The notes under the pieces: model-generated | The model's input: only the letters and a program-made list of their open reading frames with translations | What the model was told of the DNA's origin: nothing | Databases searched by the model: none | Assembly (NCBI GenBank): GCA_030427505.1 | Contig: JAUICH010000038.1 | Location: 1 to 42,998 of the forward strand | Length of the DNA: 42,998 nucleotides | DNA from: Verrucomicrobiia bacterium | GTDB lineage: Bacteria; Verrucomicrobiota; Verrucomicrobiia; Verrucomicrobiales; DEV007 | Direction: 5' to 3' | Part shown: piece after piece, positions 1 to 42,998 of the stretch | Layout: every line of letters begins with the position of its first letter | Numbering within the stretch: the first letter of the stretch is position 1 | Translations under genes and position numbers: made by a program

Positions 1-375
1 AACGGCATTGGGCCTACCCCCAATAGAGTGAGCGGGAACGAAGCCAGGCAGACTGCTTCGGCCGCGAAGCGGCTCGCAACCCCCTGAAGCGAAGCGAAAG
101 GTGTCGGCAGAGCCCGCAAAGGCGGGAAAAAAATGGGCCGCGTCTTCAGGTATTCGCCGCTTCGCGGCGCTGAGTTCTCTTTTCTTTTCTTCATTTCCGG
201 TCCGTTCTCCAATTTGTCCACACTGCCTAGTCCTCAGGCCCACCGCGGCGGAACCTTCCAATGCGGCTGCTTCGTTAGTTGAAACCAGTCCCGTTGATAG
301 AACATTGGGAAAACCACTGCTTTCAACAACAGGCGCGTCCATTTCCCCGGCGGCTCACAGCCCTTCCTGTCACAA
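1..375. other. Non-coding leader region with two small inverted hairpins
   Basis: I see no convincing gene here. Bases 61-73 and 155-169 each form a short GC hairpin around a three-base loop, and the two are reverse complements of each other. The second is followed by a pyrimidine-rich stretch (171-190), so it could terminate a gene lying left of the window. An open frame from 101 has no recognisable composition or start signal and is not called. Confidence 0.5.
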
Positions 376-31640: not shown

Positions 31641-31820
31641 GGGAGGTGACGGAGGTAGGGAGGGAACGCGAACGATTACGCCGCTCCGCCGGGAAAGAAA
31701 CCCTAAAGGAAGGGATTTCCGTCAGCGCGTTTGAACCCGGCGCCGCCCAGTCGGGTCGAAGGCAGTCTTCCCTTGTGTTCGAAGCACCGCGGCCTTCCTT
31801 CTTTGCTACCTTTTCTCCTG

Positions 31821-34460
31821 ATGACCAGACTCACGTTCCGATTCGCCCTTTCTACCCTTTTCGCCCTCTGTGGTTTTCTGCTCGACGGAGACGCCGTGGC
31901 AAAGGCGGAAACAGTTCTCCAAGTGGGTCCGGAGGCGGAATTTCACACTCCACAGGAGGCCCGGGACGAAATACGCCGTTTGCGGAGCGCCGGGCAGGTG
32001 CCGCCGGAGGAGACGGTCCGGGTGGTCCTCGCGGACGGGGTCTACGGATTGACCGAGCCTCTTACCTTCGGCCCGGCGGATGGCCGGACGATCTATGAGG
32101 CGGCGCCTGGGGCCCGCCCGGTCATCTCCGGGGGACGGCGCATTCAGGGCTGGACGGTAGCTGCGGACTCCGGTCTCTGGACGGCGCGGGTCCCGGCGGA
32201 CTGGAAATTCGAGCAACTTTACGTAAATGGCCGTACGGCGGTGCGCGCGCGGGAGCCGGACCAGTTCTTTTTCTACCTGCTGCGGTCCAAAGAGGAGAAG
32301 CTGGAGGCCGAAAAGAAATTCCGCCAGACCCTCACCGCGCGCCCGGAGGATCTCGCAAGCCTGAAAGGCCTGAGCGATGAGGCCCTGAAGCAGGCGCAGA
32401 TCCTGACCTTTCACAAATGGGACAACACACGCCGGTTCCTGGATGGCGCGGACACCGAAGCCGGACGGCTTGTCATCTCGGGACGGCAGATGAAGGGGCA
32501 CAACCCGCTCACCAAGGATACGGGGTATGTGCTGGAGAACTTTCGCGCGGCGCTGGATACGCCCGGCGAATGGTTCCTGGCTCCGGGTGGCGAACTCAGC
32601 TACCTGCCTCTGCCGGGAGAGACCCCTGAGTCTTCAGAGATCGTCGCGCCGGTAGCGGAGAAGCTGCTCGTCATCGCGGGCGATCCGGCGAAGGGCGCGT
32701 TCGTGGAGGGGCTGGAGTTTCGCGGCCTGGCCTTCCGCCATACCGGATGGACCACGCCGCCGGGAGGGTTCGACCCTTCCCAGGCCGCCTCCCCCATCGA
32801 GGCCGCCATCCAGATCGACGGAGCGCGACGGACGGTGTTTGAAAATTGCGAGATCGGCTTCACGGGCGGCTACGGGCTCTGGATCCGGAAGGGATGCCAA
32901 GACAGCCGGGTGACGAAGTGCTGGATTCACGAACTCGGCGCCGGCGGGCTGCGCATTGGCGAAACGGCAATCCGGCAGAACGAATCCGAGCGCACCGGCC
33001 AGATCGTGGCGGACAACAATATCGTCCACCGGGGCGGCCGGGTCTTCCCCTGCGCGGTGGGCGTGTGGATCGGGCAGAGCGGTGACAATGCCGTGACGCA
33101 CAATGAGATCGCGGACTTTCTCTACTCCGGCGTGTCCGTGGGCTGGCGCTGGGGCTATGCGGAAAGCCTGGCCTCCGGGAACCGCATCGAGTTTAACCAC
33201 ATCCATCACCTGGGCCAGGGCTGGCTGAGCGACATGGGCGGCATTTACACCCTGGGCCCTTCCCCCGGCACGGTGCTGCGGCACAACGTCATCCACGACG
33301 TCCTGTCCTGGGGCTACGGCGGCTGGGGCCTCTACAATGACGAAGGCAGCACCGGCATCCTCATGGAAAACAACCTGGTTTACCGCACGAAGTCCGGCGG
33401 CTACCACCAGCACTACGGAAAGGAAAACGTCATCCGGAACAACATCCTGGCCTACGGCACGGAGTACCAGGTGCGGCGCTCGAAAAAGGAAGATCACCTC
33501 TCCTTCACCTTCGAGCGAAACCTCGTCTACTGGACGGAGGGCGATCTACTCCACGGCACCTGGAAGGACGAAAACGTGGCCATTCATCACAATCTCTACT
33601 GGCAAGCCGCCGGCCAGCCTTTCGACTTCTCGGGCCTGACCTTTGAAGAATGGCAGGCCTCCGGCAAAGGCGCGGGCTCGATGATTGCCGATCCGCTCTT
33701 TGTGAATCCGGAGCACGGCGACTTTCATCTTCGCGAAGGCTCGCCCGCCGGAAAGATCGGCTTCCAGCCTTTCGACTACACCCAGGCCGGCGTCCGCCAG
33801 AACGATGCCGCTTGGGTGGCCAAAGCCCGCGAACTGCCGCTACCCAATATGGAGATTCCGCCCGGGCCGCCCCTCCTGAGCTTTCGCGAAGATTTCGAGA
33901 CGGGCGAGCTACCCATCGCCTCCGTGGTTAGCAAAGACGCCACCCTGGGCGCCCTGGAAGTGGCCGAGGTTCCCTTCGCCCACAGTGGGAAACGCGTGCT
34001 GCGCTTTACCGATGCCCCAGGACAGGAGCATCGTTTTTCCCCGATGATCGCCCTCGCCCCGAAGCACACCAACGGCGTCACCCGTGTTTCCTTCGTCCTG
34101 CGGCTCGGCCCCGGCGCAGTCTTTCAGCACGAATGGCGGGACAGCGCCCAGCCTTCCTACCACACCGGCCCCAGTCTCTGGTTTGAGAAGGGCAAGCTCC
34201 GCACCCCGCACGGCGAACTGATGGACATCCCAACGGATACCTGGATCGTCCTGGAAATCACCGCGCCCCTGGGAGAAAAGGCTGGCACCTGGAACCTGAC
34301 CGTCACTCTTCCTGACACTCCACCCAGGCACTTCGAAGATCTCAAAACCGTGAGCCCGGAGTGGAACTCCCTGGACTGGCTCGGCTTCATCAGCCAGGCG
34401 GACGTGGCGTCGGAAGCGTGGGTGGACGATCTGGTGCTGGAGCCTGGGTCTCAGGAGTGA
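31821..34460 (+). CDS. Secreted right-handed parallel beta-helix protein
   Basis: An 879-residue protein. The ATG at 31821 gives a clean signal peptide (1-29); an earlier in-frame start adds 30 unlikely residues. Residues from about 35 to 650 show the repeated N-x-I / N-x-V coils of a parallel beta-helix (for example [36 protein letters not shown]). This is the fold of pectate lyases and several glycoside hydrolases such as GH141-like enzymes. The last 200 residues form a separate beta-sandwich. It is the best candidate for a polysaccharide-cleaving enzyme here, but the catalytic residues cannot be named. Confidence 0.85.
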
Positions 34461-34544
34461 CGCACCCGACCCGTTCTCCCGAGCCGGTTTTGCCGGCGCC
34501 CTAACAATACACCGTCTTTCTCTCGCGCGCGCCGTTCTAAAAGG

Positions 34545-35033
34545 CTAATTCACCAGGATCTCTTCCGGGTAGCCCAACTGGATAAGCAAATCAATCACCC
34601 GGGTCCGCTTCCTCTCAAACTTTGCCGTAGCCGAGCTGACTTCGGAGTCATTGAAACGCGCTTTGATGAGTTCGTCCAGAGAGTCCGCTTTCTCGGCGAG
34701 GGCGACGTTGACGTCTATCAAGATCCGCACGTAGTCAGCGTCTTCCCCCTGAAAGAAAGGTTTCGACGCCTCAAGCTTCTCCACCGAACTGCGCAGGCCC
34801 GCGGCGATACCCCCCAGGTTGCCCAGGGCGCTGATCGCTTCTTCCTTGGTGGAATACTCGCCCATTTCGATCCGGTCGATCGCCACGTTCGCATAGAAAG
34901 CCCCGGACGCGCAGATCCCTCCTAGCGCACTCGCCACCTCGCCCGGAACCTCCTGGCCCCTGACCGCTCCCGCGTGGAAGAAAAGAAGGAGTATCAAGCA
35001 GGCTAATGATCTTAGAAAAGTATAGGGCAGCAT
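34545..35033 (-). CDS. Small secreted helical protein, unknown function
   Basis: A 162-residue protein. I place the start at the ATG at 35033 because a strong signal peptide follows (FLRSLACLILLLFFHAG, ending AVRG); the frame is open 54 codons further upstream, but without good composition. The mature part is mostly alpha-helical and charged. I do not recognise a family. It converges with the beta-helix gene, 84 bp away. Confidence 0.6.
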   Translation of the reverse strand: MLPYTFLRSLACLILLLFFHAGAVRGQEVPGEVASALGGICASGAFYANVAIDRIEMGEYSTKEEAISALGNLGGIAAGLRSSVEKLEASKPFFQGEDADYVRILIDVNVALAEKADSLDELIKARFNDSEVSSATAKFERKRTRVIDLLIQLGYPEEILVN

Positions 35034-35327
35034 GATATCAGACGTGGGTCCAAAGGCTATGACCGGGCTTGAAACGGTGTCAAGACGTTTGCAACCCAAC
35101 GGGAATGTCCAGACGCTGGCGCCGGCCCAGTTTCTGTCAGCCATTGGCCCCATTCTCGAAAGCCTTTGCAAAGTAAGACATCTCGCATCCGTCATCCGGC
35201 TTGCGCCTACTCGAATGGATCAGGCACCCTGCGGTCAGCTCTGGCCGTGCTACCTCGCCCAGCTTCGCTGTCATATCTTCAGGGAGATGTGTTAGAGGGA
35301 ACGGTAACCGCGAAACCGGTTGCCCCT
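35034..35327. other. Intergenic region, nothing recognised
   Basis: About 294 bp between a minus-strand gene and the methyltransferase pseudogene. Short open frames on both strands have no support. Confidence 0.4.
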
Positions 35328-36106
35328 ATGCGAATTCAGCCGCCCTCCAATCCGCCCGCTACCGGAGACTGCTTTTTCTATCACTCCATGGACGTGCCCG
35401 GCCCCGGACGGATCGAGGGTATTTGCGACATGAGATCCACCCTCCCCAACTCCGTAGATCGCGTGGACTGGAGCGGAAAGCGCGTCCTGGAGATCGGACC
35501 CGGCAATGGGTTCTAGACCCTTTGAGATGGAACGGCGAGGCGCCTCCGTGGTGGGGTGCGAACTGGGGCCCGAAGACACTTGGGACACCGTGCCCCTGCC
35601 AGGAGCGTATACCGCGGCGGGCGTCCGGGCCTTCCAGGCGCAACTCGAAGAGATCCAGCACGGATTCCGGCTTTGCCACCGGGCCTTCCAGTCCCAGGCA
35701 ATAGATCGTGCGATCCTCCGTTTACAACCTTCCCGCCGAGCTGGGAACCTTCAACTTCGCCACCATCCAGAACGTGCTCCTGCCCCTGCGCGACCCGGTG
35801 GAGGCCTTCCTGAAAGTGGCGAGCCAGGCCACGGAAACCCTGGTCGTTTCAGAAGTCGAACCGTATGGAGAGTCCCGTAAAAAAACCCTGCCGCGCTGGC
35901 TTTCCCGGAAAGAGCCCCTGCTCCAATTCATGCCCCGCGCCACCGGCCTGGCAAATCAACACACCTGGTGGCACCTCTCCCCACCCCTGATCGTGGAACT
36001 CGCCCCGATCGCCGAATCCACCAAATCCAAGACCCGCTTTCACACCCTGCACTTCATCAATGGCCCCAAGGTGAAAGGCTACACCGTGGTGTCGGAACGG
36101 GAGTAA
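35328..36106 (+). pseudogene. Class I methyltransferase pseudogene
   Basis: Three successive frames together encode one SAM-dependent methyltransferase. Frame one runs from 35328 to RVLEIGPGNGF (motif I). A TAG at 35514-35516 probably replaces a TGG codon, and one extra T among 35521-35523 shifts the frame; restoring both gives F-W-T-L-E-M-E. The second frame continues through ASVVGCELG to FQSQ. A second extra base, best placed at T35702, moves reading to the third frame (IVRSSVYNLPAEL ... VVSERE). With one nonsense change and two one-base insertions it cannot make the full enzyme. Sequencing error is possible but would need three independent mistakes. Confidence 0.75.
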
Positions 36107-36204
36107 ATTCTCTTTGGGAAAAGATTGTTGGCCAAGTTCCGGCGTGTTGGATTCTCCAGTGGTCCAAGAATCTACCGCACCCCAGCCCTCCTAAAAAAGA
36201 GAAG

Positions 36205-36250
36205 CGCGCCCGTAGGGACTCGAACCCCAAACCTTCTGATCCGTAGTCAG
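36205..36250 (-). tRNA. 3' fragment of tRNA-Arg(ACG), probable attachment-site scar
   Basis: Read on the minus strand, the 46 nt correspond to tRNA positions 28-73. The anticodon loop CTACGGA gives ACG. A five-base variable region is followed by a T arm with loop TTCGAGT, then the 3' acceptor strand CGGGCGC and discriminator G. CCA is not encoded. The match stops at position 28: the base at 27 cannot pair with A43, and the D arm and 5' acceptor strand are absent, replaced by AT-rich sequence. It is not a working tRNA. It marks one end of an integrated element, the chromosome lying to the left. Confidence 0.85.
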
Positions 36251-36387
36251 GGATTAATTATTGATAATCAATGACTTAGGGAAGAATCTGAGTCGGTTTC
36301 AGGGAATTCTAAAGAGGTTCACTGTATTCGTTTCGCGAAACCGTTACGTAGCCGTTACTCCAACGAAACGACGGAGCTTTACCCCTG
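36251..36387. other. Element end next to the tRNA scar
   Basis: An AT-rich stretch with an imperfect inverted repeat (ATTAATTATTGATAAT) is followed by two close copies of CCGTTAC (36343-36358 area) and TTTCGCGAAA. Such repeats are common near phage attachment sites as integrase arm-binding sites, but no integrase gene is adjacent. The interpretation is tentative. Confidence 0.4.
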
Positions 36388-36891
36388 TTATGGTTCACGG
36401 ACCGATAGGGTTTCAGGAGCCCTCTCAAGATCCACGTCCCTCAGACTCTTGTAAACCCTACTCAATTTTGCTTGTAAACTGGAGGCGCGAAGGTTTATGG
36501 CCGCCGCCACCGTCATTAGCAACAAGGCTAGAAGCGTAAGAATCATTCCACTTACCACGAAGAAAAAGTGTGTCACCAGCGGCATTTTTTCGAAGGACGC
36601 CCCAGCTAGAAGTGCCGCGACGAAAATCGCGGTTAACATTAGGTTCGTTGCGAGATGGCGCGAAGAGGCAATTACGTTTTCGATTTCTTCGAGGTATAGG
36701 ACTTTAGAGTTCCGCGTGATCGCTGGGTTGCACGCTAAATTTTCCGCCATTGGCATTAGGTCACGAAGAGCAGTCACATTGTTCCAGAAAGACCTGAACA
36801 CCCATCGGCCCGCAAAAATCAAGAATGCGGCCAATAAGCTTGAGAATACTCCTAATGAGACGACTTGAATCGTCGGTGAAATAGTTTCCAT
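36388..36891 (-). CDS. Three-helix membrane protein, unknown function
   Basis: A 167-residue protein from the ATG at 36891. A TTG at 36963 would overlap the preceding gene by 11 bp and add 24 residues, so the start is uncertain. Three hydrophobic segments are evident (about 11-29, 83-99 and 106-134), separated by a charged stretch with NPAITRNSKVLYLEEIENVI. I recognise no family. Its codon choice (more GAG and less GAA) is like its right-hand neighbours and unlike the genes left of the tRNA scar. Confidence 0.6.
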   Translation of the reverse strand: METISPTIQVVSLGVFSSLLAAFLIFAGRWVFRSFWNNVTALRDLMPMAENLACNPAITRNSKVLYLEEIENVIASSRHLATNLMLTAIFVAALLAGASFEKMPLVTHFFFVVSGMILTLLALLLMTVAAAINLRASSLQAKLSRVYKSLRDVDLERAPETLSVREP

Positions 36892-36952
36892 AGGGCAATT
36901 TTCACCAGCTACCTCTCGTAGCACTCTTTTCTCTGCGGCCTTGGCAAAACGC

Positions 36953-37645
36953 CTAGCGGTCAACCTCGCCCATTTCGACGACCTTTAGCGCCCTCACGGT
37001 CGAAACCGCACCGTCAACGGTTTCGTATTGCGCCGAGCCGTCTTGCACGACGAGCGCGTCAAAAACGTCGTCGTCAACGACCGAGTCGCCAGGAGCGCCG
37101 CGCAAGAGGTAGATTTTCTCGCCGGTTCGCGGCGGGGTGTATGTTGTGCTACTCCCGCCAGAGAGCAGAGACACGGCACCGGCCAGCCTCCCGCCATAAC
37201 CGCCTCTCGAGTGCTCTTGCACGAGGAGGCCGTCGGGCAGCACTTGAAACACCTTGTAAGTCTTGCGCTCGGCGCTCTGGCGCATTTCCTCGGCCTCTCG
37301 CGCTTCTTGGGCCATGCTGGCGGCTTGTGCCTCCCTTGCTTGTTGCTGGGCCGCTAGCGCCCGTTGTCGCTCCATATTCGCCGCGTTGAGCGCCGCCCGC
37401 GCCGCGCTCGCGGCATCGGGGTCATAGCCGAATTGCTTTTGCACGTCGGCAGGAAGGGCTGCGAAGTCTAGCCGGGCAATTCCGCCCGAGTGCATGACCG
37501 TAATTGCGTCGGCCTCAACCTTGGTAACCTTCACGTCTTTGTATTCCCGGCCCGCGAGCGTCGTAAAGGTAATCCGCTCGGCATCTTGAGCGATTGCGGT
37601 CACAAGCAGGGCAAGGGTTAACAACAAGGCAAGGGTCGGTTTCAT
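36953..37645 (-). CDS. Secreted SHD1-like protein
   Basis: A 230-residue protein with a signal peptide (1-19, ending TAIAQ); the ATG at 37645 is chosen for this reason. Residues 22-75 resemble the SHD1-like module of PVC secreted proteins (TFTTLAGREYKDVKVTKVEADAITV ... LDFAALPADVQKQ in outline). A Gln/Ala-rich helix (about 85-130) follows, probably a coiled coil. The C-terminal part (about 135-230) is a beta-rich domain also seen in other Verrucomicrobiota proteins, as far as I recall. It is adjacent and divergent to the tape-measure gene. Its role is unknown. Confidence 0.65.
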   Translation of the reverse strand: MKPTLALLLTLALLVTAIAQDAERITFTTLAGREYKDVKVTKVEADAITVMHSGGIARLDFAALPADVQKQFGYDPDAASAARAALNAANMERQRALAAQQQAREAQAASMAQEAREAEEMRQSAERKTYKVFQVLPDGLLVQEHSRGGYGGRLAGAVSLLSGGSSTTYTPPRTGEKIYLLRGAPGDSVVDDDVFDALVVQDGSAQYETVDGAVSTVRALKVVEMGEVDR

Positions 37646-37724
37646 GGTGGCTAACTTACCCGTCAGGCTCAGGCCGTCGAACTTTTTCGCGGTAGCACCT
37701 AACCTTTGACAAGCGGCCATTCAT

Positions 37725-39518
37725 ATGGCCGAGATTTCCGCCGAGCTAGCCCTTGAGATTAAGGAATTCCTTTCGGGCATTCAGAAAGCGCAACGCGCCG
37801 CGCAAGGGTTCAAGCAGCAAGCCGCACAAGGCGGCGGGAACATCGGACGCGGAATCGCGGGCGGGATCGGGAGCGCTGGCAAGCTTATCGGGAAGGCGGT
37901 AATCGGCGCGGTTGCGGCGGCTGGCGCGGTCGCGGGGGCCGTGGGTGGCGCGACCATTGTTAGCGGGCTTCGCCGCGCAATGGAAGACGAGCAACTCAAA
38001 GTTGCAATGGAAGTGCTCGTCGGAGATACCGACAAGGCCAAGGCGGTTATCGAGGAAATCCGAACGCTTGGAGCCCGAACGCCGCTCGAGTTTCCCGACC
38101 TTGCCAACGCGGGCCGGGCACTCCTTGCGTTCGGTGAGAGCGCCGACGAAGTGCCCGACACGCTCCGGCGCATCGGTGATGTGTCAACCGGCATCGGTGC
38201 CAAAATTGGGGAGATTGCCGAGATTTACGGTAAGGCCCGCGTGCAAGGCACCCTCTTTGCCCAGGACATTAACCAGCTTACCGGGAGAGGTATTCCGGTT
38301 ATTCAGGAATTTGCCAAACAACTTGGCGTATCCGAGGGCGAAGTCAAGAAGCTCGGCTCGCAAGGCAAGCTCACGTTTACGAACCTCGAGCAAGCCTTCA
38401 AGGATTTGACCGGCTCGGGCGGCATGTTTAACGGCATGATGGAAAAGCAATCCCGCACCTTTGGCGGCTTGCTCTCCACGTTTAAGGACAACTGGGGTAA
38501 CGTGTTGCTTGCGCTCGGCGAGCCTATCCGGGATTCGCTCAAGCCGATGCTCGAGAGCGGCATTGACCTCGTTGTTAAGCTGCAAGACAAAGCCCGGAAG
38601 ATTGGCGAGGGCATCGCCGACGGCGTGCGGCTAATTGTGTCCGCCGCTCAGGTGTTCAAGCAAGTGGCCGAATTCGGCAAGATCGGCGAGCTACTCAGCG
38701 CGGCTCTTCGCGTGGCGTTTCTTGGCGCTATCAACCTTCTGTACCGAGGCGGCGCGGCGGCAATGTCCGCCATGGTCGCCTACATGATCGAGGGCACAAA
38801 GAATACGCTCTCGTTGCTAAGTGTCCTGACCGATGCAAAATTTTGGACCGGCTTAGGCAATGCCTTGCTCGGCATTGCGAAAATGTTCGCGGCGGCAATG
38901 ATGCGGCATATTTCAAACGCTATCACGGCCATTAAGGAGGCAACGGGGAGCGTCGGGCAACGGATTCTCGGGGGCTCTGACGAGAGCTTGCGGGAGACTG
39001 CCGACAAGCTCGACGCGAGCGCAAAGCCCGACCTCAAGCGGGCCGGGGCCGACCTCGAGCCGACCTTTAACAAAATCGGCGAGCGTATGAGAAAGACCGG
39101 CGAGGCCGTCGCGGGCGCGTTCTCCCGCACCTTCAAGAACACGACCGACATTTTCGACACCTCGGGCGATAGCGCCATTTTGAAGGACGTTGTCGCGCAA
39201 ATCAGGGACACCGCCGCCGAGCTAAAGAAAGCCCAACAAGGCACCGAGAAGACGACCGGCGCGGCGGGCGAGGGCGGGGTTACCTCTGACGCCAAGACGG
39301 GCGGCTTGCCAGCTATCAACTCCCGGCTCTCCGGCGCAATCAATACGATTGTTGGCCGAAGCGCGAACGCCGTCATTGCGAACGAGGCCGCGAAGACCTC
39401 GAAGAATACCGAGCGCACCGCAAAAGCCGCCGAGCAGATTGCCGCAAACACTAAGCCCAACCGCGACGCGAAACCGACCGTCCGTTTTGACCAGCAAGGC
39501 GCGGGCCGGTTTATCTAG
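37725..39518 (+). CDS. Phage tape-measure protein
   Basis: A 597-residue protein. The first 70 residues are Gly/Ala-rich and hydrophobic. From about 75 to 240 it matches the conserved N-terminal domain of siphophage tape-measure proteins: TPLEFPDLANAGRALLAFG, DVSTGIGAKIGEIAEIYGKARVQG, LFAQDINQLTGRGIPVIQEFAKQLGV and TFGGLLSTFKDNWGNVL. Two to three hydrophobic segments lie at about 300-390. The C-terminal third is charged and helical. At about 600 residues it would specify a short tail, since family members commonly exceed 800. No tail tube, chaperone or tip gene is recognisable beside it. Confidence 0.88.
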   Translation: MAEISAELALEIKEFLSGIQKAQRAAQGFKQQAAQGGGNIGRGIAGGIGSAGKLIGKAVIGAVAAAGAVAGAVGGATIVSGLRRAMEDEQLKVAMEVLVGDTDKAKAVIEEIRTLGARTPLEFPDLANAGRALLAFGESADEVPDTLRRIGDVSTGIGAKIGEIAEIYGKARVQGTLFAQDINQLTGRGIPVIQEFAKQLGVSEGEVKKLGSQGKLTFTNLEQAFKDLTGSGGMFNGMMEKQSRTFGGLLSTFKDNWGNVLLALGEPIRDSLKPMLESGIDLVVKLQDKARKIGEGIADGVRLIVSAAQVFKQVAEFGKIGELLSAALRVAFLGAINLLYRGGAAAMSAMVAYMIEGTKNTLSLLSVLTDAKFWTGLGNALLGIAKMFAAAMMRHISNAITAIKEATGSVGQRILGGSDESLRETADKLDASAKPDLKRAGADLEPTFNKIGERMRKTGEAVAGAFSRTFKNTTDIFDTSGDSAILKDVVAQIRDTAAELKKAQQGTEKTTGAAGEGGVTSDAKTGGLPAINSRLSGAINTIVGRSANAVIANEAAKTSKNTERTAKAAEQIAANTKPNRDAKPTVRFDQQGAGRFI

Positions 39519-39543
39519 CCCGCTTGACAAGCTCGGCTAGTTA

Positions 39544-40251
39544 ATGGCTAGCCGATCTTCTTTCCGCATGCAAGGGACCGAGGGGTCCCGCGATGATACG
39601 GGGCTAATTACCCTTTCCGTTCCCTACTTCGTATCAACCCTCTCAGATGCCTTAACCATTGGAAAAGAGCCACCCCTCGGGCTCGAGGAAGTAGGCCGCG
39701 ATTGGGAAGATATTGAGGGCTTCGGGGAAGACGGTGGATTCCGCGTGGTCGTTAAATACGAGGGTTTCGAGGACGGCAAAGAAGAGGGCGAGGAGACTTT
39801 CGAATATACCCCCGGCTTCTCCGAGGAGCCTATCGAATCGCACCCACTCTACCTGAATCTACTCGAGATTTACCAGGGGGTTTACGACCCTGAAGCAAAA
39901 TCCACTACCTGGCCTCTAACCTACCAGTCCAAGAGTAACGGCTTAAAAGCGAGCGGCGGCAAGGATGCAAAAAATCCCATGCTGGACGTTAATACATTTA
40001 TTTTGCTGACATGCACGTTCGTCCACACCTATAGCGCTCGCGTTATTCCCGATAACCTCGTCGATAGAATTGGTGAGCTTCGCGATGATCTACCCGGCGG
40101 CTTCCCGACGCCCAGCGGGCGCAATTGGATGCTTATGGCTCCCCGGATAAGGAAGCGCGGCAATGCTTTTACCGTAACCGAGGAATGGTTGCTTTCCCCG
40201 GCAGGAGGCGAGTGGAGCAAAGCGGTTTACGCGTTACTCCAAAAATTTTAA
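39544..40251 (+). CDS. Hypothetical protein downstream of the tape-measure gene
   Basis: A 235-residue protein without a signal peptide, 25 bp after the tape-measure gene and on the same strand, so probably co-transcribed. The first half is acidic (EEGEETFEYTPGFSEEP) and the second half ends in RKRGNAFTVTEEWLLSPAGG, a beta-rich pattern that I associate loosely with phage tail or baseplate neighbours. No family is recognised. Its last 4 bp overlap the end of a small gene on the other strand. Confidence 0.65.
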   Translation: MASRSSFRMQGTEGSRDDTGLITLSVPYFVSTLSDALTIGKEPPLGLEEVGRDWEDIEGFGEDGGFRVVVKYEGFEDGKEEGEETFEYTPGFSEEPIESHPLYLNLLEIYQGVYDPEAKSTTWPLTYQSKSNGLKASGGKDAKNPMLDVNTFILLTCTFVHTYSARVIPDNLVDRIGELRDDLPGGFPTPSGRNWMLMAPRIRKRGNAFTVTEEWLLSPAGGEWSKAVYALLQKF

Positions 40252-40412
40252 TCACTTTTCCCCTTCCCGCCCGCGAGTCGGCTTCTGAGATACCTAAAAA
40301 GCCATCCTCGCCGGGCGGTAAGCTTCGCGGTGCCGTCCGCATATTGCTCGACCTTCCCCTCGCCCGGAAAGTGACGAACCGAAATAACCTTCTTGTTGGG
40401 TTGCTTTTTCAT
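40248..40412 (-). CDS. Small basic protein coupled to the upstream gene
   Basis: A 54-residue, strongly basic protein (starting MKKQPNKKVISVRHF and ending GGKGKSD). Its ATG overlaps the stop of the preceding minus-strand gene in an ATGA arrangement, the usual sign of translational coupling. It converges with the 39544-40251 gene with a 4-bp overlap. The central segment VEQYADGTAKL suggests a short beta hairpin. I recognise no family. Confidence 0.6.
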   Translation of the reverse strand: MKKQPNKKVISVRHFPGEGKVEQYADGTAKLTARRGWLFRYLRSRLAGGKGKSD

Positions 40413-40912
40413 TGCTGCTCTTCTTGATCGTCTGGTTGAGGGTCGCGGAAAGCGTCTTCGACGGCCCGCTTGGTTTGCTCTCGTTTTTCATCTTCTGCTT
40501 TCTTGCCCTGCCTGACATATGCCGCGAGCAGGCCTTCGACCAAGTCTTCAAGTTTTGCACCCTCTGGTAGTATTGCCTCGACTTGAGCCATATTCTCGGG
40601 GTCAAGGTCTAGTTCCACTTCGACGAGCTTATCTAGCGGCGATTCTAGGCCATCCATGGCCTCGGCCAGTTCCGCAATCAACTCCTCTATATCCCGCCCT
40701 TCGCCGAGTGCCGTCTCGGCACACAAAAGGAAGCTCTCGGGCTCGAGCTTGCCATAGCGTTCTGGCACTGGTCCACCCGCCGCGACTACGTGCTTGGTGA
40801 GCAAAAGCTCAGCCAGTCGGACCGCGTCGGTTTCGCAAAGGTTTCCGTCCAGCCACGAGGCAAGCTGGCAGTCCAGTTCGAGGGTAATAGTGTGTCTATT
40901 CATCGCCGCCAT
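40409..40912 (-). CDS. Acidic hypothetical protein
   Basis: A 167-residue acidic protein from the ATG at 40912; a GTG at 40930 and an ATG at 40903 are equally possible starts, and none has a good ribosome-binding site. The middle (VEVELDLDPENMAQVEAILPEGAKLEDLVEGLLAAYV) suggests a helix-turn-helix-like or chaperone-like helical bundle. The C-terminus is a charged Gln/Asp/Glu tail. The size and the coupling to a tiny downstream gene recall tail-assembly chaperone pairs of phages, but that is speculation, since the strand is opposite to the tape-measure gene. Confidence 0.6.
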   Translation of the reverse strand: MAAMNRHTITLELDCQLASWLDGNLCETDAVRLAELLLTKHVVAAGGPVPERYGKLEPESFLLCAETALGEGRDIEELIAELAEAMDGLESPLDKLVEVELDLDPENMAQVEAILPEGAKLEDLVEGLLAAYVRQGKKAEDEKREQTKRAVEDAFRDPQPDDQEEQQ

Positions 40913-41020
40913 AGTCGCGGATCCGGCCACTCCCTCAAGTATTTTTGCTAACTATTTTAACTGTGCGCATTATTATGCGCATAGAAACCACCGAATCACA
41001 CTGCCGGATTATCCCAAAGA

Positions 41021-41057
41021 AAGAGCCCGCCGACGGCACTCACCGTGGCGGGCTCTT
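41021..41057 (-). terminator. Probable terminator, leftward
   Basis: AAGAGCCCGCC pairs with GGCGGGCTCTT, with an inner ACGG/CCGT stem. On the minus strand the stem runs into TTTCTTT. Confidence 0.6.
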
Positions 41058-41139
41058 GATGATGAATAGAAGTTTCGCCGATCAACTCGACGCTCCAAAA
41101 TGACACCAAAGCGGCCAGGTCGCAACGGAAAAAGGGATA

Positions 41140-41186
41140 AGCCCGCACACGGGCGAAACTGGCATTTCGGCTACCGCATGCGGGCT
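41140..41186 (-). terminator. Possible hairpin terminator
   Basis: AGCCCGCA pairs with TGCGGGCT across a 31-base loop. On the minus strand TATCCCTTTTTCC follows a few bases after the stem. Confidence 0.35.
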
Positions 41187-41297
41187 CGTTGTTTTGGAGC
41201 CAAGGAGGGCCGGGAAAACCGGCTCCCGAGGGCTTCACTTTCCGCGATAGCTGTGGGAAAGGTCAATTCCAGAATTTCCTACCACCGAGGCAATTAA

Positions 41298-41338
41298 CCG
41301 CAAGCCCGAGCCCATACGGCATCGGGCTTGCGGCTTTT
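41298..41338 (+). terminator. Probable terminator, rightward
   Basis: A perfect twelve-pair stem (CCGCAAGCCCGA and TCGGGCTTGCGG) with a twelve-base loop is followed by CTTTTG. Confidence 0.6.
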
Positions 41339-41558
41339 GTGGCCTAATTTGCAACGTGGGAAACGATTTTCGAGGTTTTCTCACAAAAACGCACCATACT
41401 GACGGAAGAAGCCCACGGGAGGCCACCCCCTAGAAGAGATTCCTTAGAAGCAGGTTCTCCTATAGCTCTCACGTCACCCCTGACAGCCCGCACGGGTTCG
41501 CCGAGGGTGACCCATACCCGCCAAGCATCCCGATTCGCTAGCGAAGCACGGGAAGCTC

Positions 41559-41978
41559 CTAGCCTGGAAACATTAAGTTCCGGATCACGTCAGCAACAAA
41601 CTTCGAAATTACAGCCGAGGCTGCTACATATACCGTGCCAATGAAATGCATAGCCAAGCGGAGGTGCAAAAGAAATCTAACCCACTTAAAAATCGCCTTT
41701 GTACCATACTCAAACTCGGCCTCTACCAGTTCTTGCCTCACCTCATCTAGCAAGACCCGAAAGACTCGCACCCGCTCTTCTCGCGGAAGTAAATAGGCGA
41801 GCGATTCCCAGAACCGCATAATACTTATCTTAGGTATTCGCACCCTTTGGACCCAATCAAAGAGAACGACAGAAATAATGTGTGCAAATTTAAGTAAGTT
41901 ATCGTCTGGAATTACACCGACAAATTTGAAGAAAAGATCGACAATTTCGCGCTCTTGCTTGGACTTATTTTTACGCAT
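41559..41978 (-). CDS. Small membrane protein paired with a PadR-type regulator
   Basis: A 139-residue protein. The start at 41978 is well supported: GGAGG lies six bases upstream and the ATG overlaps the regulator stop by 8 bp. A long helical N-terminal half (FFKFVGVIPDDNLLKFAHII, then a basic amphipathic region) precedes one clear membrane helix (about 103-127, LAMHFIGTVYVAASAVI). PadR-type regulators are often followed by a small membrane protein in the same operon, which fits. No domain name can be given. Confidence 0.7.
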   Translation of the reverse strand: MRKNKSKQEREIVDLFFKFVGVIPDDNLLKFAHIISVVLFDWVQRVRIPKISIMRFWESLAYLLPREERVRVFRVLLDEVRQELVEAEFEYGTKAIFKWVRFLLHLRLAMHFIGTVYVAASAVISKFVADVIRNLMFPG

Positions 41979-42303
41979 GACCGCCCTCCGGTTGTGGCAG
42001 CCCAAAACCGGGGCTGGCCATTTTTTCGTAAAACTGTAAAGCAGCAGCACGCGCCTTGCGTCCGGTTGCCGTGATTTTGTAGCGTCGTTCCCGCACGGGC
42101 TGGCCGTATAGCTCAAATTCGTTATGCCAGCCCTCCACCCATTTGGCATCTTCAAGCCGCGCCATAAGCTGGTAAAAGCCCGGACCCGAGCGGCGAATAC
42201 CTTCCATTTTCAGAGCGGCGCGAAGCTCCCGCCCGGACATTTCGCCGGAGCCAAGGCAGCTTAGGACTGCCAGTTGAAGGTGAGACGGGTCAGGCAAACT
42301 CAT
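41971..42303 (-). CDS. PadR-family transcriptional regulator
   Basis: A 110-residue winged-helix protein. It has the PadR pattern LQLAVLSCLGSGEMSGRELRAAL (helices 1-3), GPGFYQLMARLEDAKWVEGW (recognition helix and wing), then RRYKITATGRKA. The long dimerisation helix of classical PadR is shortened. The gene is preceded by a good promoter overlapped by a palindrome (42321-42335), suggesting self-repression. It forms an operon with the membrane-protein gene behind it. The effector is unknown. Confidence 0.82.
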   Translation of the reverse strand: MSLPDPSHLQLAVLSCLGSGEMSGRELRAALKMEGIRRSGPGFYQLMARLEDAKWVEGWHNEFELYGQPVRERRYKITATGRKARAAALQFYEKMASPGFGLPQPEGGHA

Positions 42304-42320
42304 ATGGCATTAGCGGGGTG

Positions 42321-42335
42321 ATAACGTGACATTAT
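42321..42335. promoter_or_regulatory. Candidate PadR operator
   Basis: A 15-bp palindrome (ATAACGT-G-ACATTAT) with 6 of 7 pairs matching covers the -10 box of the regulator promoter, so a bound dimer would block transcription. Confidence 0.55.
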
Positions 42336-42357
42336 TACTTCATTTGCTTGCCGTCAA
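42329..42357 (-). promoter_or_regulatory. Candidate sigma-70 promoter of the PadR operon
   Basis: On the minus strand TTGACG (42357-42352) and TAATGT (42334-42329) are spaced by 17 bp. Initiation near 42322 would leave a leader of about 20 nt before the start at 42303. Confidence 0.65.
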
Positions 42358-42391
42358 TCGGATTCTAAATTCTTTTTAATTCTTTTTAGGT

Positions 42392-42873
42392 CTAGGCAGC
42401 AGGTCTCAATTTCAACGGCGGCATACCAAGCGCTTCCTGTAAGGAGTCGGGGAAGTCGCAAGAGTCCTCCCCGATAACCTCAACCGCCCGCAGGAAATCC
42501 AGCTCGGCCCCCTTGGCTTTGATCTCCTCAATAAGTGCCTGAAGACGTGTTGACCCTTCAAGTTGAGCGGCCCAATGAACAGTCAGCAGCAAGAGATTCA
42601 TGGACACTTCGCAGTTATAAAGAACTGCGAGCTTCGCGTAGCAGACGATGGCCTTGGCATGTAGTCGGTCATCGTCCTCGGCGAATTCAGCGATATCCAT
42701 AACACGATTTGCCACCGCATCAAAATGTCTCAGCTTTAAGTATGGATAGTCTCGAAAGCTAAACCAATCGCAGTAGATCGAGGCAAAACGTTTCCACGCG
42801 AACGGACTGCGTTTCACCAACGTAGAAAATGCATCGTAAGCAGTCAAAGCCAGGAGGCAGTCCTCAATCTTCT
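42392..42873 (-). pseudogene. Hypothetical gene, 5' end cut by an insertion sequence
   Basis: A helical, acidic protein (visible part ends GMPPLKLRPAA). The only usual start near its beginning is a TTG at 42847 without a ribosome-binding site, giving 151 residues. Upstream of that the frame stays open with sensible composition (QKIEDCLLALTAYDAF) right up to the insertion-sequence end at 42874. I infer that the true N-terminus lies on the far side of the inserted element. The protein family is not recognised. If the TTG is used, it would still be expressed as a shortened protein. Confidence 0.5.
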
Positions 42874-42998
42874 GGTTCTTCCGGAGTTTTAATGGGTAGC
42901 GAAGTCAGGAGCGAGGTCGAGTTTGCCGCAGTGGAAAAGGATGCGGACACGGTAGCTCTCGAAATGATGGAAGCCCCGGGCGGCTGACTTGATGGATT
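42874..42998 (-). mobile_element. Left end of an ISL3-like insertion sequence (continues beyond window)
   Basis: The element end reads GGTTCTTCCGGAG at 42874-42886, a sequence typical of ISL3-family terminal repeats, which begin with GG and often carry TCTTCCGG. The transposase stop lies 3 bp inside it. The eight bases just outside (AATCTTCT, 42866-42873) are the candidate target duplication, ISL3 elements normally making 8-bp repeats. Confidence 0.65.
42889..42998 (-). CDS. Transposase C-terminus, ISL3-like (partial)
   Basis: The window ends inside this gene. The visible 36 residues read IKSAARGFHHFESYR and then ILFHCGKLDLAPDFATH before the stop. The ARGF-x-x-FE-x-YR pattern and the CGKLDL tail are characteristic of the last helix of ISL3-type transposases. 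The family name is from memory and less certain than the transposase call. Confidence 0.65.
   Translation of the reverse strand, partial: SIKSAARGFHHFESYRVRILFHCGKLDLAPDFATH

Follow-up and report, generated by a model that had tools for sequence, protein, structure and literature searches.

Why does the 3′ part of a tRNA-Arg(ACG) gene stand by itself near a phage tape-measure gene in this verrucomicrobial genome? The window analysed here is the whole of contig C3 (42,998 bp), one of 56 contigs in the draft assembly of a 6.41-Mb genome. The initial annotation had read the tRNA fragment as the edge of an integrated element. We found that this reading is supported by a partner tRNA gene and an integrase on a second contig (C14), and by the arrangement of the host flanks in a related genome (G035). 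We consider it very probable that the fragment is an attR, left when an element integrated into the 3′ part of tRNA-Arg(ACG) through tyrosine-integrase recombination.

The tRNA fragment and its intact partner

The displaced fragment occupies positions 36202–36250 of the window (− strand) and consists of tRNA positions 28–73 and three further nucleotides. Letter-by-letter extension showed that window 36250–36202 (−) is identical to C14:16190–16238 (49 nt at 100%), which is the 46-nt block of the initial annotation, with its start at tRNA position 28, plus 3 nt. When a 36-nt piece was searched against the own genome with up to three mismatches, it was found in two places only, window 36215–36250 (−) and C14:16190–16225 (+), with no mismatch at either. 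A 49-nt exact match within a 6.4-Mb genome is not a chance event. At tRNA position 27, where the match had been said to end, with C27 no longer pairing with A43, the fragment has a C and the intact gene has a T, which can pair with A43. ARAGORN detected no complete tRNA in the window, in agreement with the claim that the remainder of the tRNA is absent; this also excludes an intact tRNA-Arg at the fragment position, which would have pointed to an assembly error. No Rfam family reached its gathering score in the window. A repeat search within window positions 34000–42998 gave no partner for the fragment, and the genome search placed it on C14.

The partner is an intact tRNA-Arg with the anticodon acg at C14:16162–16236 (+), as predicted by ARAGORN. 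A 424-aa tyrosine integrase ORF (C14:16310–17584, +) begins 73 nt behind the end of this tRNA, and matches both PHROG phrog_1 (E 2.8e-24) and Pfam Phage_integrase PF00589 (29.3 bits, cut-off 27.1). The intact tRNA-Arg(ACG) with the same block and the neighbouring tyrosine integrase, both of which had been expected elsewhere in the genome, are located at the other end of the element. We infer the following course of events. The element's own attachment site would have carried the tRNA sequence from position 28 to the 3′ end, so that the 3′ half of the attL tRNA would be of element origin. Recombination would have restored a complete gene at attL, on C14, and displaced the 3′ part belonging to the host to attR, at the opposite end in the window; gene loss and an inversion would have left a defective phage.

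A lone tRNA fragment without a partner would look identical if it were a tRNA pseudogene from an unrelated duplication, with the phage genes at its right being coincidental. Here, however, an integrase lies directly behind the intact copy, and both the side and the orientation of the fragment are those expected. In addition, a target duplication of an insertion sequence (IS) links the two contigs, and both host flanks are found together in G035 (see below). The pseudogene explanation is very improbable on these grounds.

Joining the two contigs through an insertion sequence

Contig C14 ends in an ISL3-family IS (Pfam DDE_Tnp_ISL3, 277 bits), which spans C14:23395–24723 (1,329 bp). The last 125 nt of C14 are identical (100%) to the last 125 nt of C3 reverse-complemented, so that window positions 42874–42998 (−) are the last 125 nt of this IS, whose whole copy is on C14. 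ISL3-family insertion sequences make an 8-bp target duplication. The present IS has a transposase with zinc ribbon, HTH and DDE domains, ends that are inverted copies starting GGTTCTTCCGG, and an 8-bp target duplication: AGAAGATT is read both in the 8 nt preceding the IS on C14 (C14:23387–23394) and in the 8 nt that follow the IS in the window (42873–42866, −). The left end of a second IS copy is found on C52 and is preceded by CATAATAC, and no right end of this second copy was found in the assembly. As the same 8-bp duplication occurs on C14 and C3 and a different flank occurs on C52, C14 pairs with C3. The probability of the 8-nt match by chance is about 1.5e-5, or 3e-5 given two possible left flanks. 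With two left flanks, on C14 and C52, and a single right flank found, it is the duplication, together with the att pair and synteny, that carries the join. On these three lines, C14 and the reversed window, which are separate contigs in the assembly, are taken to be neighbours. The claim that a tape-measure gene and an IS lie to the right of the fragment holds for the tape-measure gene; of the IS, the window contains just the last 125 nt.

Given the join C14–IS–reversed C3, the element measures 15,206 bp with attL and attR included: 7,156 bp lie on C14 between the att block and the IS, 1,329 bp are the IS and 6,623 bp belong to the window, the att blocks accounting for the rest. The element without the IS is near 14 kb. 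Both ends are thereby fixed for an element that was split over two contigs by assembly, and the case shows that contigs can be rejoined by combining a tRNA fragment with an IS overlap and an 8-bp duplication.

Could the repeat be an artefact of a chimeric contig? The assembly is a draft of 56 contigs, and both contigs break at an IS copy. However, each junction fits a known recombination product (the tRNA boundary in one case, the IS ends with their target duplication in the other), and displaced tRNA-Arg(ACG) ends also occur in two other genomes, G003 and G018. An assembly artefact is barely conceivable in view of these observations. Separately, a repeat about 95% identical between contigs is present at window 1–233, C52:4767–4996 and C14:12–126, that is, at two contig starts and inside C52.

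Host flanks and a related element-free locus

The host gene preceding the intact tRNA on C14 encodes an amidohydrolase. In G012, G020 and G006, homologues of this gene (57–62% identity) also stand before tRNA-Arg(ACG), with the same orientation. On the attR side, the host flank contains a beta-helix protein gene (31731–34460, +; Pfam Beta_helix), which served as a synteny anchor. Homologues of the amidohydrolase (65%) and the beta-helix protein (60.5%) lie on opposite sides of one tRNA-Arg(ACG) in G035. The beta-helix match ends 3.7 kb from this tRNA, and by eye the ORFs between them resemble ordinary cellular genes. A tblastn search with the own integrase gave no match in the tRNA region of G035. 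Among the ten relatives whose regions were compared, both flank homologues are present in one and only the amidohydrolase in three, while in six the tRNA has neither beside it. The tRNA-Arg(ACG) of G035 (L053, 10162–11096) is inverted relative to the amidohydrolase, as compared with G012, G020, G006 and the own genome. Because the tRNA points the other way, the G035 locus is best regarded as a counterpart of the empty site that does not reproduce it exactly. The relative without the insertion, with which a comparison had been proposed, thus has both flanks around one tRNA-Arg(ACG), though it belongs to another genus and its tRNA is reversed; no second genome of the host's genus was present among the 57 searched. 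For a 132-aa ORF adjoining attR, the other 56 genomes yielded no homologue.

The tRNA pattern search in these 57 genomes (own included) gave matches in 42, with two places in six genomes: the own genome, G003, G018, G040, G053 and G054. In G003, the intact tRNA-Arg(ACG) is at C39:26741–26815 (L186, L183), and an exact 48-nt copy of its 3′ part is found about 100 kb away at C39:126550–126597, 1 kb from a weak integrase match (C39:125102–125569; 24.7 bits, under the cut-off). The region C39:26741–126597 is probably a large island at the same target. In G018, the intact gene is at C81:133531–133605, and a diverged, displaced 3′ part is at C153:418–453 (L184, L185); C153 also has an integrase match 68 kb from the displaced end. 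The displaced ends in G003 and G018 begin at position 29 by eye. No relative was seen to carry such a fragment without an insertion, which would have told against the integration reading: the G003 end lies near the weak integrase match, and the G018 contig has an integrase match. With displaced ends at position 28 or 29 in three genomes, tRNA-Arg(ACG) is a repeated integration target in the host's Verrucomicrobiales family. G054 has two tRNA-Arg(ACG) 3′ copies (C57:21374–21409 and C57:35896–35931), 14.5 kb apart on the same strand, which are either two genes or the mark of another integrated element.

Comparison with known tRNA-borne islands

The mechanism of integration into tRNA genes has been known for decades. 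It is textbook knowledge with nothing new in it, and the present element is a clear but ordinary case. According to the Islander paper (PMC4383910), tRNA or tmRNA genes harbour the sites of about 30–50% of integrative islands. Islander relies on the signature of an intact tRNA, a displaced cognate 3′ fragment and an integrase; its list includes 3,760 islands that have a 3′ tDNA fragment, and its references go back to work of 1989. Like the islands described there, our element has an intact tRNA, a cognate fragment reaching the 3′ end and a tyrosine integrase between them, and its 3′ fragment is downstream in the same orientation and within 2–200 kb (15,206 bp, given the join). The repeat covers the anticodon loop, as needed for the anticodon-centred site class described there, to which the element would then belong. 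Unlike the Islander islands (PMC4383910), its ends are on different contigs joined through an IS, and a search within one replicon sequence would presumably miss such a split element.

Gene content of the element

In the joined order, the host amidohydrolase gene on C14 is followed by the intact tRNA-Arg, the integrase gene, HTH-like genes, an AAA_25 gene, a capsid gene and the ISL3-family IS. The reversed window continues with ORFs without a family, the inverted 235-aa and tape-measure genes, further ORFs without a family, the displaced tRNA end and the host genes. On C14, the small ORFs after the integrase show weak HTH or excisionase matches. A 472-aa ORF has an AAA_25 domain over its last two thirds (58.2 bits) and matches PHROG primase/helicase families (E 4.5e-12 and weaker), and a 206-aa ORF gave no family in Pfam or PHROG. 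The major head (capsid) protein encoded on C14 has 297 aa (PHROG, E 3e-24).

Window 36251–42873 (6623 bp) is the right part of the element, bounded by attR and by the IS that provides the link to C14. Its G+C content by kilobase window is 0.50, 0.55 and 0.52 (starts 36001, 40001 and 41001) and 0.58–0.62 in the other three full ones. From attR onwards, a 191-aa ORF (36388–36963, −), for which no family was found, is followed by a 255-aa ORF (36953–37720, −) with sub-threshold matches only, to Pfam Chlamy_scaf (17.6 bits, cut-off 25) and a PHROG virion structural protein (E 0.014). The tail tape-measure protein (597 aa; 37725–39518, +) is clearly identified by Pfam TMP_3 (91.1 bits, cut-off 41) and PHROG tape measure (E 1.2e-59), and its gene is antiparallel to the C14 capsid gene in the joined order. 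The adjacent 235-aa protein (39544–40251, +) has no Pfam or PHROG family, and its homologues are encoded just 3′ of the tape-measure gene in six loci (L060, L062, L127, L131, L132 and L203). The remaining genes are a 173-aa ORF (40409–40930, −) without a reliable family, a gene for a PadR-like regulator of 110 aa (41971–42303, −; PF03551, 26.7 bits, just under the cut-off of 27), and a 151-aa ORF adjoining the IS (42392–42847, −) without a family. The window copy of the 8-bp target duplication, AGAAGATT as read on the − strand, lies at 42866–42873. A PADLOC scan of eight element ORFs gave one match only, to DpdE (E 0.0023, 13.8 bits), which was too weak to be believed, and this identity was rejected.

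Integrase relatives and their target sites

Relatives of the integrase in the broad family (E ≤ 1e-10) are found in 117 of 189 genomes, own included. We examined 24 loci with ARAGORN, and an intact tRNA stands just 5′ of the integrase in ten of them: the own Arg-ACG, Leu-TAG, Thr-CGT (2), Thr-TGT (3), Arg-TCT (2) and Val-CAC. No intact tRNA was detected there in the remaining 14 integrase loci; several have partial tRNA-like sequence at this place, in one case beside masked bases. At L140 (G029:C307), a tRNA-Thr end starting in the anticodon stem lies directly before the integrase, as would be expected of an excised or tandem element. Displaced tRNA ends of the related elements were searched for in 11 fetched contig pieces with an ARAGORN tRNA (26-nt core, up to two substitutions), and none was found.

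A motif near TCAACGAGTTA stands 2–10 nt behind the tRNA end. With up to two mismatches, it is present at 11 of 13 distinct tRNAs that have an integrase match within about 500 nt behind them and at 6 of 61 that have none; flanks shorter than 40 nt or containing N were dropped, and these counts are descriptive, as the motif was derived from some of the same sequences. The six exceptions, with the motif and without an adjoining integrase match, are all tRNA-Arg(ACG) genes of the host's family (L025, L030, L031, L037, L039 and L045), and their motif stands 4–9 nt behind the tRNA. In a Pfam integrase search of these six genomes and the own genome, the contigs carrying the intact tRNA gave no match apart from the own one and a sub-cut-off one about 98 kb away in G003. 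The motifs at the six exceptions are possibly scars of lost elements, or the ends of elements split over contigs. The sole match to the TCAACGAGTTA string in a full-text literature search was a paper on small circular genomes in reagents.

In another genome, a related integrase at a tRNA-Thr (L171, G089:C54:10492–30491) is followed by an AAA_5-domain protein, which we take to be McrB-like, a type I N6 DNA methylase and an HTH-peptidase protein. This content is perhaps a defence island.

Decayed prophage or phage satellite

We compared the structural genes of the element with those of 189 genomes of the order. A capsid match was found in 14 genomes and a tape-measure match in 26, the own genome being included in both counts. 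The order of capsid then tape measure on the same strand is found on nine genome contigs (in G151, G098, G053, G067, G140, G075, G064, G088 and G072) and on seven viral contigs (L074, L203, L204, L208, L210, L211 and L212), some of which may be close kin, so that these counts of gene order are not independent. The aligned parts of the two genes are about 4.0 to 7.4 kb apart in ten loci (L127, L129, L133, L134, L203, L204, L208, L210, L211 and L212), and terminase, portal and protease genes stand before the capsid gene in L127, L129, L203 and L204.

The prophage of Verrucomicrobium sp. BvORR106 (NZ_BATR01000122.1, L162; taken to be G151:C88, L127) encodes a capsid protein 48%, a tape-measure protein 46% and a 235-aa protein homologue 39% identical to those of our element. 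Unlike our element, in which they are not matched or are inverted, it has terminase, portal and protease genes, a capsid–tape-measure stretch and co-oriented genes. Thus, of the parts of a complete tailed prophage, the capsid and tape-measure genes are present here, while a search with the G151 proteins gave no tblastn match (E ≤ 1e-3) in the element for the terminase large subunit, portal or head protease, and the genes are not co-oriented. The G151 prophage ORFs matching the element are the capsid, tape-measure and 235-aa homologues with their reverse-frame shadows, and the only other match covers 34 residues of a 152-aa protein (E 1.5e-4). Verrucomicrobia phage P8625 (NC_029047), compared for its capsid only, has a capsid protein 34% identical over 96% of the query, and does not appear among the best 15 of 214 tape-measure records. 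When IMG/VR was scanned with single sequences of the capsid or the AAA gene, no relative could be confirmed; a three-sequence capsid alignment gave 11 loci in the IMG/VR scan, and the capsid scan of genome contigs confirmed one relative among at least 596 pattern matches listed. Because the tape-measure pair is antiparallel to the capsid gene and no terminase, portal or protease match was obtained, we read the element as a putative decayed and rearranged prophage that would have undergone gene loss and an inversion.

Alternatively, the element might be a phage satellite or an integrative island, built around the integrase–HTH–AAA module as its core, in which capsid and tape-measure genes of its own are retained on purpose. 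Its size of near 14 kb without the IS agrees with this, and the best support comes from G086:C52 and G077:C700, where an integrase and an AAA_25 relative lie within about 2 kb of each other; G090:C32 has a weak integrase match (23%) with an ATPase. No capsid relative is present in these three pieces, which are short (12.1, 5.2 and 6.4 kb). However, the capsid, tape-measure and 235-aa genes follow a tailed-phage order in relatives and are here split and inverted, and a capsid with an inverted tape-measure unit was not seen elsewhere in the places examined. The cfPICI-like capsid-encoding satellites have their own head-assembly set, including portal and packaging genes, which is conserved as a unit. 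Our element has the capsid gene and no portal or terminase match, and its unit is absent from the other places examined. We regard a satellite as unlikely.

A broader proposal would place the element in a family of small integrative elements with an integrase–HTH–AAA_25 core, which acquire single phage structural genes (capsid, tape measure) to exploit or disturb helper phages. Their integrase group would have a portable site near TCAACGAGTTA, 2–10 nt behind the tRNA end, would use tRNA genes of different amino acids, and would leave this site as a scar at tRNA-Arg(ACG) after loss of the element. This proposal is quite unlikely, a little more so than the satellite. In G151:C88, a relative of the AAA_25 gene is located 5′ of the capsid gene at a distance of 18.5 kb and shares its strand, which is the arrangement to be expected of two phage genes; this fits a phage origin of the AAA_25 gene, and both the satellite and the integrase–HTH–AAA_25 family therefore become less likely. 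The decayed prophage remains our preferred reading of the element.

Two further loci in the host genome were noted. On C20, a second relative of the tape measure (32%) at 32727–33761 and, about 17 kb from it, a weak relative of the terminase (23%, E 2.1e-6) at 51149–51967 probably belong to another prophage. On C51, eighteen tRNA matches lie on one strand within about 5.5 kb (115390–120904, L014), many of them low-scoring and several for the same amino acid. This cluster resembles a tRNA array and may belong to a phage, a plasmid or an island.
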